From positions 1 through 64,000 of the forward strand of contig JAJONO010000012.1 of the NCBI GenBank assembly GCA_021323535.1: a stretch of 64,000 nt of DNA. The letters run 5' to 3'. Positions 7,874 through 56,134 of this stretch are shown here, piece by piece. The notes below the pieces were generated by a model. The model saw only the letters and a list, made by a program, of their open reading frames with translations, had not been told where the DNA came from and did not search any database. The position numbers and the translations under genes were made by a program. Source of the stretch: Bacteroidota bacterium (GTDB lineage: Bacteria > Bacteroidota > Bacteroidia > B-17B0 > Aurantibacillaceae). The first letter of the stretch is position 1, and each line of letters begins with the position of its first letter.

Positions 7874-8974
7874 ATGCGCAGGCTACACTTAATATTTCAG
7901 ATACTTTTTTATGCCATTTCTTTTTCCCAAAACGGAATTACATGCCATCCCGATTGGCAAATTAAGCCTTCGGTAAATCAGGGTTTTATTCTTGAGCATC
8001 GGAGTACTATCGGACATCTTGTAAAGGGATACCCGACTATTTACGAGCTTAATGTCAGTAAACCGACTTTAGGAAATAAATTATGGCATCACGAGAATAA
8101 CATGCCTGATGTAGGTATGTCTTTTTCTGTTCTCGATTTTAAAAATCCTGATCAATTAGGTTACGCATTTTCAGTAGCTCCTTATGCCGAAATTCCTTTG
8201 AACAAGGATAAAAGATCCAGGATGATCTTGCGTTTATGTTGGGGTGTTAGCTATCTGGATAAGTGTTTTGATGTTAAGAAAAACCCAAAAAATATAGCTA
8301 TTGGAAGTCATATTAATTCATTTGTGCAATTTAAATGGTTCTGGCAGATCCCACTTTCAGAAAAAATACGATTTGAACCAGGATTCTCTTTTAGCCATGC
8401 GAGCAATGCCCGTGCTAAAGTTCCTAATTTGGGATTGAATGTTGTTGGATTAAACGCGGCTTTTAATTTCCTGATTCCAGGAAAAGCATGCTCGCCTCTT
8501 TCATCTATTGATTCGTCAGCTAAAGTAAGGTCAAAAAATGAATTGCTTACGTACGCGTCGTTTGGTTACAATCAGCGCGAAGTTGCTACGGAACCTCTGT
8601 ATAATTTGCATGTTACCGCTACTTATCACAGGAATGTAAGGAACACACATAAATGGGGTATAGGCACCGATATTTTTATTGATCAGAATTATCTTATAGA
8701 TTACAAACAGGAATTTAAAAAAAGCGCTTCAGGTATTGATAATACCCGAATAGCCATTAAGTTCTGTTACTCTTACAATTTAGGCAGAATAAGTTTTCCG
8801 ATAGATATTGGTTATTATGTTTTTCAGAAAGTAAAACCCGATGGACCAGTTGTGAGCAGGATAGGGGTACGTTATTATAGCAAGTGCGGAGTAATAGCGG
8901 CTATAGGGCTAAGAACACATTTTGCAGTTGCTTACGATTTTGAATATGGATTAGGTTATCGTTTCTTTTTATAA
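7874..8974 (+). CDS. PagL-like lipid A 3-O-deacylase / acyloxyacyl hydrolase
   Basis: A 366-residue secreted outer-membrane protein. A signal peptide ends near AISFSQ. The body alternates aromatic and polar residues as in an outer-membrane beta-barrel and carries FSHASNAR with His175 and Ser177, the HxSNA active-site motif of PagL. The third acidic triad member could not be placed with certainty. PagL removes the 3-O acyl chain of lipid A in the outer leaflet. It is longer than the roughly 170-residue proteobacterial PagL; Bacteroidota homologues annotated as acyloxyacyl hydrolase are commonly of this length. It is followed after 4 bases by a GIN lipoprotein and is divergent from mazG. Confidence 0.8.
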   Translation: MRRLHLIFQILFYAISFSQNGITCHPDWQIKPSVNQGFILEHRSTIGHLVKGYPTIYELNVSKPTLGNKLWHHENNMPDVGMSFSVLDFKNPDQLGYAFSVAPYAEIPLNKDKRSRMILRLCWGVSYLDKCFDVKKNPKNIAIGSHINSFVQFKWFWQIPLSEKIRFEPGFSFSHASNARAKVPNLGLNVVGLNAAFNFLIPGKACSPLSSIDSSAKVRSKNELLTYASFGYNQREVATEPLYNLHVTATYHRNVRNTHKWGIGTDIFIDQNYLIDYKQEFKKSASGIDNTRIAIKFCYSYNLGRISFPIDIGYYVFQKVKPDGPVVSRIGVRYYSKCGVIAAIGLRTHFAVAYDFEYGLGYRFFL

Positions 8975-8978
8975 CAGT

Positions 8979-9719
8979 TTGACAAAACACATTACATATT
9001 TTTTTATAGCTCTCGTTTTCTTTTCGTGTAAAAAAGAGAATTCAACAGATTGTCTTAAGTCCAACGGAAGCGAAATTACGGTGGAGAGAAATCTGGATGC
9101 TTTTAAAACTGTTATTGTTAACGATAAAATTGATCTTAATATTATAAGAGGTACCAGTTACAAAGTGGAAGTCACTGCCGGAAAAAATATTATTGGAAAT
9201 ATTTCTACAATTACTTCAGACCACGTGCTTGAGATCAGCAATAACAACAAATGTAATTTTGTTCGGGGGTATAAAAAGCGTGTAGTCGTTACCATCACAG
9301 TGCCCGTTATCAGAAAAATAGTGAACAATGGAGTAGGCACTGTGAAATGCACCAACGATCTTATTCAGGATTCCATTTTTGTTCGCGCCGAAAATTCAGG
9401 AGACATTCACGTCAGCGGACAATTTAAATTACTGCAGACTAGTTCTCATGGAAACGGAGATATTTATCTTAATGGAGTTTGCGATAAATTGTACGTTTAC
9501 ATGTTCGGTACCAACTTTCTAAAGGGAGAGAATTTAAAAGTAAATAATTATACATTCATAGAAACCATAAGTCTCGGAGATTGCACCATTAAAGCGCCGC
9601 AGGGCGGCATACTCGATTATAATCTGTGGAGAAGCGGTAATATTTATTATAGCGGAGATCCTGCCATCATCAATGATTTGAGTGATGGTTCAGGAAAAGG
9701 AAAACTAATCAAACAATAA
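8979..9719 (+). CDS. GIN-domain (DUF2807) lipoprotein
   Basis: A 246-residue protein with a lipobox VFFSC (Cys17, then KK), so likely membrane-anchored outside the cytoplasm. The pattern starting LDAFKTVIVNDKIDLNI, with repeated short beta-strand units (VRAENSGDIHVSG, GNGDIYLNG), is the head-GIN/DUF2807 beta-helix fold common in Bacteroidota. Biochemical function is unknown. The start is TTG, 4 bases after the PagL-like stop, so both are probably one transcript. Its TAA directly abuts the stop of the convergent M48 gene, leaving no room for a terminator. Confidence 0.75.
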   Translation: MTKHITYFFIALVFFSCKKENSTDCLKSNGSEITVERNLDAFKTVIVNDKIDLNIIRGTSYKVEVTAGKNIIGNISTITSDHVLEISNNNKCNFVRGYKKRVVVTITVPVIRKIVNNGVGTVKCTNDLIQDSIFVRAENSGDIHVSGQFKLLQTSSHGNGDIYLNGVCDKLYVYMFGTNFLKGENLKVNNYTFIETISLGDCTIKAPQGGILDYNLWRSGNIYYSGDPAIINDLSDGSGKGKLIKQ

Positions 9720-46151: not shown

Positions 46152-47444
46152 TTAAGTGGTTTTTTTACCGGATACACATTGTATCAGATCTTTTTCCTGA
46201 AGGTATTTGTTGGCCATGTTGCGGATATCTTCCGGGGTCACAGTTTTTACGGCGTTAAAGTAACGGTCAAAATACGAGTAATCGAGCCCAAACTCCCATA
46301 TAGCCTTGAATTTATCGGCGAGTGCAAAAGGTCCATCTACACTGCGGAGGATCTGCCCTAAAATGTAATTTCTTACCGTTTCAAGTTCAGAATCGCTTAC
46401 TAATTCTTCTCTCAGGATTTTAATTTCCTTGTAAGTTTCATCCAGTGCCTGTTGTGTAACATCGGAGCCGACTTCAGTTGAGATGAAAAAATATCCCGTG
46501 TCTACGAGCGACATTAAACCGCTTCCAATGCCATAAGTAAAACCTTTATCCTCGCGGATATTGGCCATTAAACGCGATCCAAAATATCCACCCAGAATGG
46601 TGTTCATTACCTGGAAATGATAATAATCAGGATGTGTTTTGTTGAACATGATCCTTCCCACACGAATAGCGCTTTGAATAGCGTCGGTTTTTTCAAAATG
46701 GTGGATGCGTTCCGTAGTTGTTTGAAGGGGTACAGCTGTTCTTGTAATACTCTGAACGTTTACTCCCCAATCTTTGTTTCCAAAAAAAGTTTCCAGAGTA
46801 TCGTTCAGGTTGTTTGGAAGATTTCCGGAGGCAATGATGGTACAATTTTTTGACTGGTAGAATTTGCTGTAAAATTCCCTGATCTCATTGATATTAACGC
46901 GTTCAAAATCCGAATCCTGAACATCGATACCGTAAGGATGTTTAACACCGAAGAGCAACTCACTGAATTTTCTTCTTGCAATAACGTTTACCTTTTGAGA
47001 ATTGATAAGGTGTTTTTGTTTTTTATTAGCGATATGAATGCGGAACTCTTCTTCTGAAAAAACAGGACACTTCACAATTTCCTCAATGAAACGCAGGCTT
47101 TCGGTAAGATATTTGTTCAGGGAAAACAAGGTGATGCAGGCATAATCCTGTCCAACTCCCAGTTCAATGAAAGAACCGTAAAAATCAATTCCGTCGCTGA
47201 TCTGATTGGCGTTAAACGATTTTGTTCCTGTTTCAAGTAACGAATTTGTGGTTGACGCAATTAGGGCCGCAGGTTGATAAAACATTCCTGCTTTAAAAAT
47301 AAATTCGAGTTTTATAATTTCCTGGCTGCCCGCGTTGATGGAATGCACGTCAATTCCATTGCTGAGTTTACCTGAAACAGCTTTAATAACATCTACCTTA
47401 CTAATGGTTTTGAATTCCGGCGCTAATGTTCTGTCTATCGTCAT
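46152..47444 (-). CDS. M16-family peptidase partner subunit (no zinc motif)
   Basis: A 430-residue protein with the two-domain M16 fold. Where HxxEH should be it has QPAALIASTTNSLLETGTK, so it cannot bind zinc. It does keep the GGYFGSRLMANIREDKGFTYG stretch, the Arg/Tyr motif that the non-catalytic subunit contributes in heterodimeric M16B peptidases. It probably pairs with the zinc-bearing subunit encoded at 50.3-51.5 kb in the same operon. No signal peptide is apparent. The start overlaps the GT-C stop by one base (TAATG). Confidence 0.88.
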   Translation of the reverse strand: MTIDRTLAPEFKTISKVDVIKAVSGKLSNGIDVHSINAGSQEIIKLEFIFKAGMFYQPAALIASTTNSLLETGTKSFNANQISDGIDFYGSFIELGVGQDYACITLFSLNKYLTESLRFIEEIVKCPVFSEEEFRIHIANKKQKHLINSQKVNVIARRKFSELLFGVKHPYGIDVQDSDFERVNINEIREFYSKFYQSKNCTIIASGNLPNNLNDTLETFFGNKDWGVNVQSITRTAVPLQTTTERIHHFEKTDAIQSAIRVGRIMFNKTHPDYYHFQVMNTILGGYFGSRLMANIREDKGFTYGIGSGLMSLVDTGYFFISTEVGSDVTQQALDETYKEIKILREELVSDSELETVRNYILGQILRSVDGPFALADKFKAIWEFGLDYSYFDRYFNAVKTVTPEDIRNMANKYLQEKDLIQCVSGKKTT

Positions 47445-49300
47445 TATAAAAGAGGTTTTTTGGTTATTTGATAATTCATTAAATAAAATTCAGTGGGAAC
47501 GCGGTAATTAACACCTTTCCCCGAGAGCTGGTATAACTTAACATCATTGATCGAAATATGTATGTTTTGTTTTTCAATGTTCCAGATATAAGCAATAAGG
47601 GTTGTTTTTGGAGGCAGACTTTGACCGGTAAGTTTTAAATGTTTTTCCTGTCCGTTAAGATCGCTGCCCAGCCAGTTCAAAGGTACTCTTTTATACCAAA
47701 CATCTTCATGTTTTTCGTTCTGTACCTGCAAAGTTAAAAACGCGTTAAAAGGCCTGGGAACCGAACTGAACTTTATTGAAACATACATTTCGACCGGATT
47801 TTTAAAGGCGAAACTTGTATCGTTAAAACGAATAAATTCATGAAATTCTCCTTCGCCTTTCAGTTCTTTGTTGTAGGCCTCAAAGAACGTGTGATGTGTT
47901 ATTTTTTCTTTGCGTTTTAAGAGCACACGCTCCCATTTTTCGTCGTAGCCAATCTCATCGTAAAACTCTTTGTAGAAAGGTTGTTCACGTTTCATCGCGA
48001 AATAATAATCGCAGTTCATCTGCATTTCTTCCGAATTGTCCATGGGGTTAAGAACAGATTGTCCCCTGTAATTCAAAAAAGTATAATTCATTTCACGTAC
48101 GCGGTGGCCGCCAATGGTAAATACCTGTTTTTCCTTTTCAAATTCACTTTTTAATTGTTCGTAAAGGGCTTTTGGCATTGTGTGGTAAAAGAATGAAGAA
48201 AAATTCTGCAGGTTAAACGAGATAATAAAAAACAGTAGTGTTGATACTGTTATCACCGGAGAAATAAATCGCGATAACATCCTGAAATCGTCAAGGAAAA
48301 AAGAAAAGCTCAAAGCAAAGAGGACAAAAAAGAAAAGTCCTGTTCTGTCTTCGGGATAATTTACGTCGAGTATCTTTTTCTGGAGGTAAAAAGCGGCCAC
48401 AAGAATGGCCAGAAAAAAAGCATAAAAATTCTTTGTCTGAAACAATTTATCAAGGGAGAAAACCCTGAATGAAGAATAAACAGCGAACAGAATAATTATA
48501 CAGAAAGAAATAAGAACAAGAAGCTGTAGCCATAAAGTTTCGGTTCCATAAATCATTTGCATCAACGATTTAAAAGTAACCTCCCAGTAATTATCACCAG
48601 CGCCGGCATCCAGCGAGCCGTGTTCTTTATAGAAAAATGAAAATTTTATCCAGAAAACAAGGATTGAAATATTAACCAACTGAAGGAGAATGTTTCCAAT
48701 ATTGAAAAATATTTTTCTGCTGAATTGAAAAATGTAAATGTAAAACAAAAGTACGGTTACAATCACCACAAAAATCAGATTTGCGGCAAGAGCCAGTTGA
48801 ATGAAAAACGAAAACAGGATCAGTTGTTTGAATTTTTTTTCGCTTAAATAATCGTGTAAATAAGAAAGACCAAGAACCATGAAACCCATTGATAATCCGT
48901 AGCCACGGCATAGTTCAAAAAAATCGAGGAAATTGAACGTAAGAATTAAAAAAGCTGTAAGAAGTATTTTGGAAGAATAGTTTTTGAGGTATTTAAAATG
49001 ACGGAATGTGCCTATACACAGAAAAATAAAAGAAAGAATATTAGGTAACCGAAGAACAAAACGGTTGGAACCCGCAATATGATAACACACATTGGTAAGA
49101 GCGCTGTTTAAAACGTGATTGTTGGTGTAAATGTGGGCTTTGTAAGGCAGATAATTATCACTTTGCACGTAAAAGAAAAAGGTGGCGGTTTCATCATGAC
49201 TGAATGGAATACAGAATGCTCTTAAACAAATGACAATAAAAGAGGCGAAGCAGGTGAGCCAGAAAATTTTATTGAAATATTTGTCCAGAAAGACGACCAC
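47444..49300 (-). CDS. GT-C-like integral membrane protein, putative glycosyltransferase
   Basis: A 618-residue inner-membrane protein with 10 or more hydrophobic spans in the first 370 residues, followed by a soluble, beta-rich periplasmic domain (about 380-618). The first loop has CIPFSHDETATFFF with DE-type acids and HIYTNNHVLNSALTN, a GT-C arrangement reminiscent of PMT-like proteins. Donor and acceptor are unknown. The GTG start overlaps the upstream HD-CoaD stop (TAGTG). Its position inside an M16/CoaD operon is unexpected. Confidence 0.7.
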   Translation of the reverse strand: MVVFLDKYFNKIFWLTCFASFIVICLRAFCIPFSHDETATFFFYVQSDNYLPYKAHIYTNNHVLNSALTNVCYHIAGSNRFVLRLPNILSFIFLCIGTFRHFKYLKNYSSKILLTAFLILTFNFLDFFELCRGYGLSMGFMVLGLSYLHDYLSEKKFKQLILFSFFIQLALAANLIFVVIVTVLLFYIYIFQFSRKIFFNIGNILLQLVNISILVFWIKFSFFYKEHGSLDAGAGDNYWEVTFKSLMQMIYGTETLWLQLLVLISFCIIILFAVYSSFRVFSLDKLFQTKNFYAFFLAILVAAFYLQKKILDVNYPEDRTGLFFFVLFALSFSFFLDDFRMLSRFISPVITVSTLLFFIISFNLQNFSSFFYHTMPKALYEQLKSEFEKEKQVFTIGGHRVREMNYTFLNYRGQSVLNPMDNSEEMQMNCDYYFAMKREQPFYKEFYDEIGYDEKWERVLLKRKEKITHHTFFEAYNKELKGEGEFHEFIRFNDTSFAFKNPVEMYVSIKFSSVPRPFNAFLTLQVQNEKHEDVWYKRVPLNWLGSDLNGQEKHLKLTGQSLPPKTTLIAYIWNIEKQNIHISINDVKLYQLSGKGVNYRVPTEFYLMNYQITKKPLL

Positions 49301-50253
49301 TAATCCAGTAAGTAAACCTTGTGTTTATCGTATTTTTCAAGAGTGCGGATGCCCGAAGAAGAAATATGTTCGAATTCCTTATCGCAGAAAATATTAATGA
49401 TCTTGATGTTTGGCATTAATTCCTGGATATAACGATACTGGTTCTGTTCATACTGAAAATCTGTAGAGTTTCTCAGGCCCCTTACAACAATTACATCATA
49501 ACCGAGCGAGCTCACAAAATCGGTGAGAAGCCCGGTGTATTCTTCCATCTGGTGATACTGAATTATTTTTGGGATCGGCCAGGTTCTGTCATTTTTATCA
49601 GGATTTTTCCCGAAGGCAACAATGACTTTATCAAAGATACGTTCCGCTTTTTCAAGAACGTTATAATGTCCTTTATGAAACGGATTAAAACTTCCACAGA
49701 ATACGCCGATCAATGGTTTACGTTGTTTCACATATTCAATTAACATATCCAGTTTGCCGTTCTTATTTAATTTCTGAAGAATCTCAATTCTTTTTGGAAG
49801 ATAAATTCTATGGTCCACAAACTGAAACTCCCTGAAGATCTGATGCTCGTATTCCACCAGTTTTTCGAAAGGTTGTTCAAGTATACTCAGATCGGCAGTA
49901 ATGAGTAATTGGGATTTATCGGAAGAAGCTTTATGCGTCTTCGTATCCATGATCAACTGATAAATGTTTTTTTTCTGCGCGTCATTTAGCCCCGAACCAT
50001 TGGCATGCTGCATGAATAAATTTGCCGATTGCTCTTCATTATCTCCCGCTTTAGGATCATAAACAGCATCGTGATAAACGGCTGCCAGAAATAATTCATC
50101 ATCAAAATTGTTTTGCTTTGCTAATCGCGATATTACATCCAGCAAATGATCAATGGTGTGATAAAAACGATGGGATTCATTGTAACGGGCCAGAACTTCA
50201 ATCGGGAATTTAAGATCCGTTAAACGTTTCGAGATGTAATTAATATCACTCAT
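49300..50253 (-). CDS. coaD: HD-domain phosphohydrolase fused to phosphopantetheine adenylyltransferase (CoaD)
   Basis: A 317-residue cytoplasmic two-domain protein. Residues 1-175 are an HD-type metal-dependent phosphohydrolase: YHTIDH (His32, His36), the HD pair His61-Asp62 in AVYHDAVYDP, and Asp121 in ITADLSIL. Residues 180-317 are a nucleotidyltransferase with CoaD landmarks: GSFNPFHKGH (183-196), Lys220, RGLRNSTDFQYE (258-269) and ISSSGIR. CoaD joins AMP to 4'-phosphopantetheine, the fourth step of CoA synthesis. The CoaD half is divergent (SFNP rather than SFDP, shortened C-terminus), so the substrate could differ. Single ATG start, no internal restart needed. Confidence 0.85.
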   Translation of the reverse strand: MSDINYISKRLTDLKFPIEVLARYNESHRFYHTIDHLLDVISRLAKQNNFDDELFLAAVYHDAVYDPKAGDNEEQSANLFMQHANGSGLNDAQKKNIYQLIMDTKTHKASSDKSQLLITADLSILEQPFEKLVEYEHQIFREFQFVDHRIYLPKRIEILQKLNKNGKLDMLIEYVKQRKPLIGVFCGSFNPFHKGHYNVLEKAERIFDKVIVAFGKNPDKNDRTWPIPKIIQYHQMEEYTGLLTDFVSSLGYDVIVVRGLRNSTDFQYEQNQYRYIQELMPNIKIINIFCDKEFEHISSSGIRTLEKYDKHKVYLLD

Positions 50254-50266
50254 GATATATTATGTT

Positions 50267-51514
50267 TTATGAAGAAGCCTTTTTGGCGAGATAGTACAAT
50301 GTACTGCAATTGCTTTCGTTAAGAATAAGGTTGGCCTGTTCTTTTATTTTCTGAGACGTGACTTCAGAATATCTTTCTATTTCCTGGTTAATAAGATCGG
50401 CATCGCCAAGCAATTCTGAAATGGCAAGATTAGTGGCTTTAGTAAGAACATCTGTTTCACTGAAAGTAAGTGTTGATTCTACTTTGTTTTTACATTTCTG
50501 TAATTCGGTTTCATCAACCAGTTCATTTTTTATTTTTGCCAGTTCGCCGTTAATAGCGATTTCAGCTTGTTCCATAGTAACGCCTTCGGCCGTTTTTCCG
50601 CTTATCACAAAAAGACCTTTATCAAGATCGCCCATAACATAGGCGTTAATCTCATTGAAAACCTGTTTTTCTTTTACCAAAGTTTTATAGAGACGTGAAG
50701 AATTTCCACGACTGAGAATGTCTGATAAAATATCTACGGTGTGATATTCCTTATCGGTGCGGGCGCACATTTTGTAAGTTTTGTAAATGGCGTCGGCCGG
50801 AACATCGCGTTCAACAGTTAATTTTCTTGCTTCGGTTTGTTTAGGTTCAACAGGAAGATTTCGTTCAGGTTTTTTTCCGGATGGAATAGGGGCGAACCAT
50901 TTTTCTGAAAGTGTTTTAACCTGTGCCAGATCAACATCTCCGGCCACTACCATAATTGCGTTAGAAGGATTGTAATGTGTTTTGAAAAAAGATTTCACAT
51001 CGTCCATGGTAGCATCTTCGATATGAGAAATTTCTTTTCCGATGGTGGCCCATTTGTATGGATGCGTGGTGTAGGCAAGTGGACGAAGTAATAACCAAAC
51101 ATCGCCGTAAGGCTGGTTTAAATAACGTTGTTTAAATTCTTCGATCACCACGCTGCGTTGTACCTCAAGACTCTTGTCGGTGAAAGCGAGGCTTAACATG
51201 CGGTCGCTTTCGAGCCAGAAAGCCGTTTCAAGATTTTCGGCGGGAACGGTGCAGTAATAATTGGTAATATCATTCGTGGTAAAAGCGTTGTTTTCGCCAC
51301 CTACCAATTGTAAAGGTTCATCGTAGTTTGGAACATTAATACTTCCTCCAAACATAAGATGTTCGAAAAGATGCGCGAAACCGGTTTTGTTTTCACTTTC
51401 ATCGCGCGCGCCAACATCATAAAGAATATTAATGCAGGCCATTGGAGTGCTTTTATCCTGATGAACAATGACTGTGAGTCCGTTCGCTAATTTGAATTTT
51501 TCGTAATGGATCAT
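50267..51514 (-). CDS. M16-family zinc peptidase, catalytic subunit
   Basis: A 415-residue peptidase with the inverted zinc motif HLFEH (His48, Glu51, His52) and the downstream ETAFWLESDRM acid. No signal peptide is evident, so it is probably cytoplasmic. In M16B heterodimers the zinc subunit pairs with a zinc-less one, here supplied by the gene at 46.2-47.4 kb. First gene of the four-gene leftward operon. The HD-CoaD fusion follows after 13 bases. Confidence 0.92.
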   Translation of the reverse strand: MIHYEKFKLANGLTVIVHQDKSTPMACINILYDVGARDESENKTGFAHLFEHLMFGGSINVPNYDEPLQLVGGENNAFTTNDITNYYCTVPAENLETAFWLESDRMLSLAFTDKSLEVQRSVVIEEFKQRYLNQPYGDVWLLLRPLAYTTHPYKWATIGKEISHIEDATMDDVKSFFKTHYNPSNAIMVVAGDVDLAQVKTLSEKWFAPIPSGKKPERNLPVEPKQTEARKLTVERDVPADAIYKTYKMCARTDKEYHTVDILSDILSRGNSSRLYKTLVKEKQVFNEINAYVMGDLDKGLFVISGKTAEGVTMEQAEIAINGELAKIKNELVDETELQKCKNKVESTLTFSETDVLTKATNLAISELLGDADLINQEIERYSEVTSQKIKEQANLILNESNCSTLYYLAKKASS

Positions 51515-54590: not shown

Positions 54591-55556
54591 TTGCAAGGGT
54601 TAAACCTTAAATATTCAAATACTAAAAAAAAGCCGGCTAAAACTACGGCTTTTTTTGTTTGCCTTCTTTTAGCCGGAATGCTTTGGGGAATAAAAATACT
54701 TAATACAGTATATGATCATCAGCGTTTCAGGATTCCGGTGATGTTCCGCAACATTCCGCAAAATAAAAAACCAACACAAGCGTTGCCCGATCATCTTACT
54801 ATTGATGTAAAAGCAAGCGGATTAAAATTGCTGCTTATTTACATGAAGCAACCATTTAAAACTCTGGAAGTAGATTTCAATGATCTTAAATCGGTAAACA
54901 AACAACAGAACTATCTTCTTTCGCCTGCTACCATACGTTTTAAAAATAGTCTCAAGTTTGAAGCTGATATTGTTCAGGTAAGTCCCGATGTGCTTTATTT
55001 TACAGAGAAAAGCGGTTACCAGAAAAATGTTCCGGTTAAAGTTCCGTTGTACGTAAAATGCGTTCAGGGTTATGGTTACCGCACCCCTGAACTTACACCG
55101 GCGTTTGCCACAATTGTTGGCGACAGCAACGCTATTAAAGCAGTTGACACAATTTATACGCAGGCTCTGTCGTTAAACAATCTGTCGCAGAACACTGAAA
55201 AGAAAATGGCGGTAATAAGACCCAATGAAAATGTGTATTGTAATGTTCATGAAGTGGATGTGAAAATAGAAGTGGATAAACTCATTGAACACATTGTGTA
55301 TATTCCTGTGGAAGTAGGAACCAACGATCTGAATGTAAAAAGTATTAATGTATTTCCTTCGAGAGTGAAAGTAAAGTTTACTGCTTTACAGAATAATTTC
55401 AACCCCGCTGATACGGCTTCATTCAATGCTACTGCAAATAGTTCAGCCATTTCAAAATCAGGCAGAACACCGGTGTTCATTAGTACACAGCCCGGAAATA
55501 TTAATGTGCTTTCAATAGAACCCAAAGAAGTTGAACTTTTAATAATAAAGAAATGA
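54591..55556 (+). CDS. YbbR/CdaR-like domain protein
   Basis: A 321-residue protein with one N-terminal membrane span (FFVCLLLAGMLWGIKIL) and two to three YbbR repeats outside (for example HLTIDVKASGLKLLLIY, RVKVKFTALQ). CdaR in Firmicutes controls a c-di-AMP cyclase; in Bacteroidota the role is open. The start is TTG, 4 bases after yajC, as the next Met falls inside the membrane span. Its stop overlaps coaE (ATGA). Confidence 0.82.
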   Translation: MQGLNLKYSNTKKKPAKTTAFFVCLLLAGMLWGIKILNTVYDHQRFRIPVMFRNIPQNKKPTQALPDHLTIDVKASGLKLLLIYMKQPFKTLEVDFNDLKSVNKQQNYLLSPATIRFKNSLKFEADIVQVSPDVLYFTEKSGYQKNVPVKVPLYVKCVQGYGYRTPELTPAFATIVGDSNAIKAVDTIYTQALSLNNLSQNTEKKMAVIRPNENVYCNVHEVDVKIEVDKLIEHIVYIPVEVGTNDLNVKSINVFPSRVKVKFTALQNNFNPADTASFNATANSSAISKSGRTPVFISTQPGNINVLSIEPKEVELLIIKK

Positions 55557-56134
55557 TTGTTGGTTTAACCGGTGGAATAGGGAGCGGTAAAAGTATTGTA
55601 GCAAAAATATTCGGAATGCTGGGCTGCGCATTGTTTAACAGCGATGAGGCCGCGAAAGAAATTTATTTTGATGAAGTCATCAGGGAAAAAGTAATTGCTT
55701 TGCTTGGAAAAGAGGCTTACCTGAGCGACACCGAAATCAACAAAACATTCATTGGATCAAAGATCTTCAGCGACACTGTTTTATTACATCAGTTAAACGG
55801 AATCATTCATCCGGCTGTAAAAGAGGAATTCAAAAAATTTGTAGTAACCAACCCGGGAAAACTTATTATAAAGGAAACCGCCTTGTTATTTGAAGCAAAA
55901 ATTGATGGCGACGTGGATAAGATCATTCTTGTTGCAGCAAACGATGAACTCCGCATTAAGCGTGTGATGAGAAGGGACGGATTAAATGAACAGGATGTGA
56001 TCAGGAAAATAAAGAGCCAGTTACCACAAGAGGAGAAAATTAAACGTTCGCATTTTGTGATTTATAATAATGAGCAAGAGTTTCTCATCACCCAGGTATT
56101 GGATGTTTATAATAAATTAAAAGGGAATGTATAG
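55553..56134 (+). CDS. coaE: Dephospho-CoA kinase
   Basis: A 193-residue cytoplasmic P-loop kinase: GLTGGIGSGKS (residues 4-14), FNSDEAAKEIYFD and IIHPAVKEEF are CoaE signatures. It phosphorylates dephospho-CoA at the 3' position, the last step of CoA synthesis, directly after the CoaD reaction. Coupled to ybbR (4-base overlap) and overlapping the next gene by 8 bases. Confidence 0.95.
   Translation: MIVGLTGGIGSGKSIVAKIFGMLGCALFNSDEAAKEIYFDEVIREKVIALLGKEAYLSDTEINKTFIGSKIFSDTVLLHQLNGIIHPAVKEEFKKFVVTNPGKLIIKETALLFEAKIDGDVDKIILVAANDELRIKRVMRRDGLNEQDVIRKIKSQLPQEEKIKRSHFVIYNNEQEFLITQVLDVYNKLKGNV

Follow-up and report, generated by a model that had tools for sequence, protein, structure and literature searches.

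The HD-CoaD gene and its operon

CoaD, the phosphopantetheine adenylyltransferase (PPAT) that carries out the second-to-last step of coenzyme A (CoA) synthesis, is indispensable to almost all bacteria and serves as a drug target. In the window, a 64,000-nucleotide stretch of DNA from a Bacteroidota bacterium (contig JAJONO010000012.1), a CoaD domain forms the second half of a 317-residue protein whose first half is an HD-type phosphohydrolase domain. An earlier note, made from the sequence of the window alone, had described this gene at 49300-50253 as one ATG-started frame with the motif sets of both domains. The frame and all of the listed motifs were found again (Table 1), and the strand, which the note had not given, is the minus strand. 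The gene has its closest relatives in large bacterial viruses. This suggests the replacement of an essential bacterial gene by viral ones, probably on two occasions.

Table 1. The HD-CoaD gene, its domains and motifs, and its neighbours (positions in the window)
Feature	Positions	Strand	Remarks
Whole HD-CoaD fusion gene	49300..50253	minus	317 aa from ATG; TAG stop at 49300-49302
HD catalytic core, residues 1-126, COG4339-like	49876..50253	minus	profile match E 1e-32; missing in short relatives
His32-x3-His36, first metal-site histidines	50146..50160	minus	Arg29 three residues ahead of His32
His61-Asp62, HD motif	50068..50073	minus	identical in 42/42 fused homologues
Asp121, last metal ligand	49891..49893	minus	identical in 42/42 fused homologues
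Last HD-region helices and linker, residues 127-180	49714..49875	minus	kept as remnant in short bacterial forms
CoaD (PPAT) domain, residues 181-317	49303..49713	minus	TIGR01510 and E. coli PPAT fold match
GSFNPFHKGH (187-196), nucleotide-binding motif	49666..49695	minus	alignment to 1b6t
Lys220	49594..49596	minus	aligns with E. coli PPAT Lys42
RGLR (258-261)	49471..49482	minus	aligns with E. coli Arg88-Arg91
ISSSGIR (297-303)	49345..49365	minus	aligns with E. coli ISSS 127-130
M16 peptidase a (M16a)	50267..51514	minus	upstream neighbour; constant partner of the CoaD gene in this order
618-aa multi-pass membrane protein	47444..49300	minus	downstream neighbour; GTG start
M16 peptidase b (M16b)	46152..47444	minus	follows the membrane-protein gene

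The genes for M16a, HD-CoaD, the membrane protein and M16b all lie on the same strand and therefore appear to form one operon. Thirteen bases separate the end of the M16a gene from the start of HD-CoaD, and the TAG stop of HD-CoaD shares one base with the GTG start of the membrane-protein gene, whose product gave no match in a Pfam search. In line with the earlier note, coaE (55553-56134, plus strand; PF01121, E 3.5e-40) lies nearby in another transcription unit.

The earlier note had also raised the possibility that a frameshift or a sequencing error joined two separate genes. Of the 34 genomes of the same order that carry the full-length fusion, nearly all have it free of stops; it is also present in two other families, and the identical architecture occurs on phage contigs; the exception in the order is the fused copy of genome G010, which has an internal TAA. 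Because the fusion is conserved end to end across many genomes, it is neither a frameshift nor a chimera, nor an assembly error. Nothing was found in favour of such an artefact, the chance of which we regard as negligible.

The CoaD half and its distribution

The alignment to E. coli PPAT (1b6t) pairs His196 with His18, Ser188 with Thr10, Ser298-300 with Ser128-130 and Arg258/Arg261 with Arg88/Arg91, and the active-site residues are identical or almost so across 42 aligned fused homologues. An AlphaFold model of the whole protein (mean predicted local distance difference test score, pLDDT, 90.9; predicted template modelling score 0.85) superimposed on E. coli PPAT (1h1t/5jbn) with Z 17.8 and a root-mean-square deviation (rmsd) of 1.9 Å over 137 residues. 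The top 48 chains of the fold comparison were all PPATs, as were all noteworthy matches of the protein in the PDB. The complete CoaD-like motif set claimed by the earlier note thus comes with the PPAT fold. The stretch from Lys220 to RGLR is about 10 residues shorter than in E. coli PPAT, the last C-terminal helix of canonical PPAT is missing, and the SFNP change is common to the entire phage-type clade described below.

In domain searches, the CoaD half matched CTP_transf_like in Pfam above its cut-off and found its best NCBIfam match in TIGR01510, at 87.5 bits (E 9e-25), under the curated cut-off of 103.3; all members tested of the divergent clade to which it belongs scored 80-100. The HD half had no match in the Pfam or NCBIfam searches. 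Against the NadD family TIGR00482 the fusion scored 28.6 bits, compared with a cut-off of 112.45, and the genome encodes a separate NadD (171.8 bits against TIGR00482).

A canonical coaD elsewhere in the genome, together with a lack of adenylyltransferase activity here, had been named as an outcome that would refute the CoaD assignment. We searched this genome (97.5% complete) for a second CoaD and found none; its weak TIGR01510 matches were NadD or shorter fragments. In a related genome assembled as one contig (G001), the fusion is likewise the only CoaD. We then compared 87 genomes of the order, most of the genomes in this study being metagenome-assembled genomes (MAGs). A CoaD was matched in 79 of them, as the divergent form in 70 (34 fused, 36 short with about 201 residues) and as canonical CoaD alone in nine, which belong to genera g25, g29 and g32. 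Neither form was matched in the other 8 of the 87, in one of which (G008) the contig stops inside the M16 gene. Divergent and canonical CoaD are almost mutually exclusive in the order, and the divergent form is the only CoaD of the genomes that carry it, with G010 and, in another family, G163 as exceptions. Two genomes with both a fused and a short form (JAQZBQ/G101) proved to hold two syntenic orthologous loci from two species in one MAG, and not paralogues.

The two forms also occupy different sites. The divergent gene directly follows M16a in most divergent-form genomes (in genus g26 it only precedes M16b). In the canonical-coaD genera the M16 pair is adjacent, or split by the membrane gene alone, with no CoaD between (L110, L111, L112, L114, L115), and the canonical coaD locus read in g32 adjoins rsmD and fmt (L093). 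Two further observations were made at these loci. A related 131-aa open reading frame lies between M16a and CoaD in both a short-form and a fused genome (L105:2803-3198; L126:2521-2916). The second CoaD of G010 is a 394-aa CoaD-CoaE fusion (PF01467 and PF01121; L090:4038-5222, contig C67), a single protein for the two final steps of CoA synthesis that may come from a contaminating genome.

A similar distribution was seen in family f89 of a different order, where the gene is fused in four genomes (g229, g277), short in six (g287) and canonical in two (g284), divergent and canonical CoaD never occurring together in one genome. Two wider samples, one of the class and one of the phylum with about 395 genomes apiece, contained no further fused case, and plasmids yielded separate HD or CoaD matches only, with no fusion.

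Relatives on large phage contigs

The CoaD half has relatives on IMG/VR contigs with identities of up to 62%; at least 12 of them are fused and more than 20 are unfused. Terminase genes were present on five of the 24 viral contigs examined, four of which carry the fusion (344, 517, 223 and 154 kb). The nearest fused phage relative (L176, 48% identity) lies on a contig with a head-closure family protein and an NAD synthetase. Among huge phages in GenBank, LR756502 has the HD half alone, LR756501 a degenerate fusion and LR745206 the CoaD half. The stand-alone HD protein of LR756502 (187 aa; 642-kb phage, L253) ends at the linker, where CoaD would start; it looks like a fusion that lost CoaD, the opposite case to the short forms of bacteria.

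The unfused phage members nearest the bacterial ones lie in NAD-salvage cassettes with Prs, NAMPT, NMNAT-Nudix, Sir2 and Macro genes. In two of these (L244 and L245, viral contigs G899 and G900), NAMPT, Prs, NMNAT-Nudix, Macro and Sir2 accompany the divergent CoaD, and one may ask whether they serve a combined supply of NAD and CoA. NAMPT lies 1.2 kb from one fused phage member, with an NMNAT-Nudix gene at a greater distance. On a 118-kb viral contig, a gene for a TROVE/Ro60-type protein lies near NAMPT and HD-CoaD (L241:4425-5741). On the 344-kb contig with a terminase, coaE (PF01121, E 3.7e-23) overlaps HD-CoaD (L242:7966-8622 and 8594-9628), a possible phage CoA operon. On a 375-kb viral contig (L214), an HD tail, a divergent CoaD and a CoaE-like P-loop domain (E 1.2e-5, under the Pfam cut-off) follow one another in one frame.

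Two trees bear on the direction of transfer. The CoaD tree was built on 152 columns and rooted with canonical CoaD; it has long viral branches and an unsettled bootstrap. In it, divergent CoaD formed a separate clade (100/100) with viral sequences outermost (95/82). The clade of the window's CoaD grouped with the fused phage relative L176 and nine unfused viral sequences (98/95). A single clade of all bacterial members was rejected (AU test, p 0.012 with all rows, 0.021 with the longest branches left out), as was a single clade of all viral members (AU test, p 0.0097). In the HD tree, all fused HD domains stood apart from the stand-alone ones (99/100), and a single bacterial clade was not rejected (p 0.36). 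With the bacterial members nested among the viral ones in the CoaD tree, these results favour, and do not prove, transfer from phages to bacteria at least twice.

The HD half and the origin of the enzyme

HD phosphohydrolases follow a rule of H...HD...D metal ligands with an Arg three residues before the first His (PMC8177086), and the fusion does so with H32, H61, D62, D121 and R29. In the alignment, H32, H36, H61, D62 and D121 were identical in 42 of 42 fused homologues and R29 in 39 of the 42. In a profile comparison the HD half aligned over 147 residues (E 1e-32) with HD proteins that stand alone in other Bacteroidota. Plasmid-borne proteins of this kind bear the annotation 'metal-dependent hydrolase' or 'NMDAR2C subunit'. 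These relatives would belong to COG4339, whose proteins carry the same labels. The match of residues 1-180 to PDE2, of HD-type fold, was near chance level for helical bundles (Z 13.3, rmsd 3.7); the fold-search list was filled by CoaD structures, and the missing higher-ranked HD match carries no evidential weight.

The short bacterial forms start at the position equivalent to fusion residues ~113-128 and keep E136, F140, Q144, Y151, R155, L159 and P180, so that the last ~55 residues of the HD region stand as a remnant. In one short form this remnant was modelled as ordered helices (pLDDT 90-97), and the short forms of the distant family f89 matched those of the present order (E 5e-13). The N-terminal ~60 residues of the short forms matched the fused profile at E 1e-19. 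Their direct match to stand-alone HD proteins was weak, with E 0.09 and 0.16, so that it is the matches to fused forms (E 1e-19 and 2e-9) that support their reading as a remnant. A fused ancestor from which the HD core was later deleted would be the simplest account.

When the tail columns were left out, a tree of M16a and CoaD showed the fused forms interleaved with the short ones, with five changes, or eight losses if these are irreversible, and a single short clade was rejected (AU p 0.001). With the tail columns included, three changes were counted, and the M16-only tree gave eight with weak support. That the HD core was lost more than once is thus well supported by these phylogenies, although the exact number differs by tree; the tail-dependent conflict may reflect recombination between fused and short alleles (residues 113-180, f1 loci). 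In close fused pairs, the ratio of nonsynonymous to synonymous substitution rates was 0.003-0.04 for CoaD and 0.06-0.15 for the HD core. Judged from these ratios, both halves are kept by selection, the CoaD half far more strictly. The HD part was lost repeatedly in bacteria while CoaD stayed under extreme purifying selection, since the short forms hold a conserved HD remnant.

The explanation that we prefer, at a probability of about 0.6, is that this phage-type HD-PPAT is the working CoaD and has displaced canonical coaD, probably twice, with the HD domain probably an accessory hydrolase. We infer that the fusion would make dephospho-CoA from 4'-phosphopantetheine and ATP, and that CoaE would complete CoA. 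In this Bacteroidota lineage an enzyme of phage type, and not the ancestral bacterial CoaD, would have come to lie in the M16-peptidase operon; canonical coaD would then have disappeared from the rsmD locus. The same kind of enzyme would have made a second, independent replacement in the other order, that of family f89. The HD domain would be a metal-dependent hydrolase that clears wrong PPAT products or reverses the PPAT reaction, as YqeK for NadD; being useful but dispensable, it would have been removed on several occasions in bacteria, which kept only its final helices, as a conserved cap. The fusion and its conservation, the exclusive distribution, the operon site, the HD loss, the phage relatives and the nesting in the tree come directly from the computations, and the two enzyme activities, the HD substrate and the phage-to-bacterium direction are inferred from them. 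Three points go beyond the earlier note: the connection with large phages, the displacement of canonical coaD and the recurrent loss of the HD core.

Several observations weigh against this explanation. The TIGR01510 score is under its cut-off, G163 (family f39) has a canonical coaD elsewhere in its genome besides a fused homologue (52% identity), and G010 has a canonical CoaD domain on a 10-kb contig. Many of the phage homologues accompany NAD-salvage and not CoA genes, and the viral identity of most contigs is that of the IMG/VR classification. The short alignment and long branches of the CoaD tree and the outcome of the HD tree belong here as well. The phage neighbourhoods, together with the similarity of the GSFNPFH motif to that of NadD, would suit a nicotinamide or nicotinic acid mononucleotide (NMN or NaMN) adenylyltransferase of NAD synthesis, adjoined as the phage genes are by NAMPT, Prs, NMNAT-Nudix, Sir2 and Macro genes or by NAD synthetase. 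We consider this improbable: the TIGR00482 score is far below its cut-off, the bacterial genome has its own NadD, and the gene that disappears is canonical coaD. The PPAT role is the better reading because the phage cassettes bring their own NMNAT and because two phages pair the gene with CoaE, one through the overlapping coaE and another through the CoaE-like domain behind it. The earlier note had left room for a different nucleotidyl transfer, which becomes less likely with a separate NadD in the genome, no canonical coaD alongside and a phage HD-CoaD abutting coaE.

The same enzyme might also have travelled in the opposite direction, from an old bacterial HD-CoaD lineage that large phages captured several times and that survives in the bacterial clades. 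Host metabolic genes are frequent in large phages, many bacteria have stand-alone COG4339-like HD proteins, and the HD tree leaves a single bacterial clade standing. We nevertheless hold this course of events to be unlikely, as viral branches lie outermost in the divergent clade under the canonical root, single bacterial and single viral clades are both rejected in the CoaD tree, and neighbouring genera have canonical coaD. About as unlikely, in our judgement, is an HD domain that hydrolyses no CoA-related compound and serves as a nucleotide-sensing regulator of PPAT or merely as a structural cap. Some HD proteins are regulatory, and the final HD helices remain after the core is lost; yet the metal ligands are invariant across the fused proteins, with R29 nearly so, and unfused phage members are entirely without the tail, and the cap is therefore not essential for the fold. 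An accessory role also fits the repeated loss of the HD core in bacteria.

If the preferred explanation, a phage-type HD-PPAT in place of canonical coaD, is true, it would be a clear example of core metabolism passing to viral genes, in two Bacteroidota lineages that are unrelated. The position of phage CoaD genes beside coaE or NAD-salvage genes suggests that phages may handle both CoA and NAD, a point of relevance to cofactor repair in phages and possibly to RNA capping with dephospho-CoA or NAD. A survey of viral systems connected with NAD covers NadV, NadM and NadR, with no mention of CoaD or pantetheine (PMC9503650). More tentatively, and at rather less than even odds, large phages would carry a self-proofreading CoaD, HD plus PPAT, in an infection programme that rebuilds NAD and CoA, and bacteria would have captured this enzyme at least twice and then lost their own essential coaD, which would leave a core step of central metabolism dependent on a gene of phage origin. 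No paper on the HD-CoaD fusion or on COG4339 was found in a literature search of partial coverage, which is weak evidence of novelty. The COG4339-like HD family is uncharacterised, and the fusion is the first functional lead found here for it; the series of canonical, fused, and fused-then-trimmed enzymes in one family makes the cost and the use of the HD domain directly testable.

Compared with E. coli PPAT and the TIGR01510 family, the fusion shares the fold, the HxGH, Lys, RGLR and SSS motifs and a distribution complementary to that of canonical coaD; it differs in its score, its shorter middle and C-terminus, its operon and the N-terminal HD domain, of which the short forms have the remnant. 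Jumbo phages with PPAT and NAD-salvage genes are a further comparison. One of them, the isolated Caulobacter phage C1, carries NAMPT about 4 kb from its annotated PPAT, but that PPAT is of the canonical GSFDPITLGH form and without an HD domain. With the stand-alone COG4339-like proteins the HD half shares the R-x-YHT..H, HD, NEE-SA, ADL and R-EY...GR motifs, whereas, in place of the fusion's linker to CoaD, they have an extra C-terminal helix (AR-NL-EL).

The closest parallel in design is the mycoplasma NadD-YqeK protein (PRK07152), in which the YqeK HD domain proofreads NAD synthesis, a function needed because mycoplasma NadD accepts wrong nucleotides (PMC9426524). Both proteins join an HD phosphohydrolase to a HIGH-superfamily adenylyltransferase of cofactor synthesis. 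In NadD-YqeK, however, the HD domain stands at the C-terminus and comes from another family, COG1713, which has a di-iron site with two extra histidines between HD and D, and the partner is NadD and not CoaD. In that stretch of the present family only His107 is conserved, in the bacterial forms and not in the phage forms. By analogy with YqeK, the HD part is probably an accessory hydrolase for quality control. Another HD family joined in the opposite order to another transferase of the same superfamily suggests a convergent solution, in which HD would remove wrong-nucleotide products or limit the pool, a more specific proposal that we put forward with less than even confidence.

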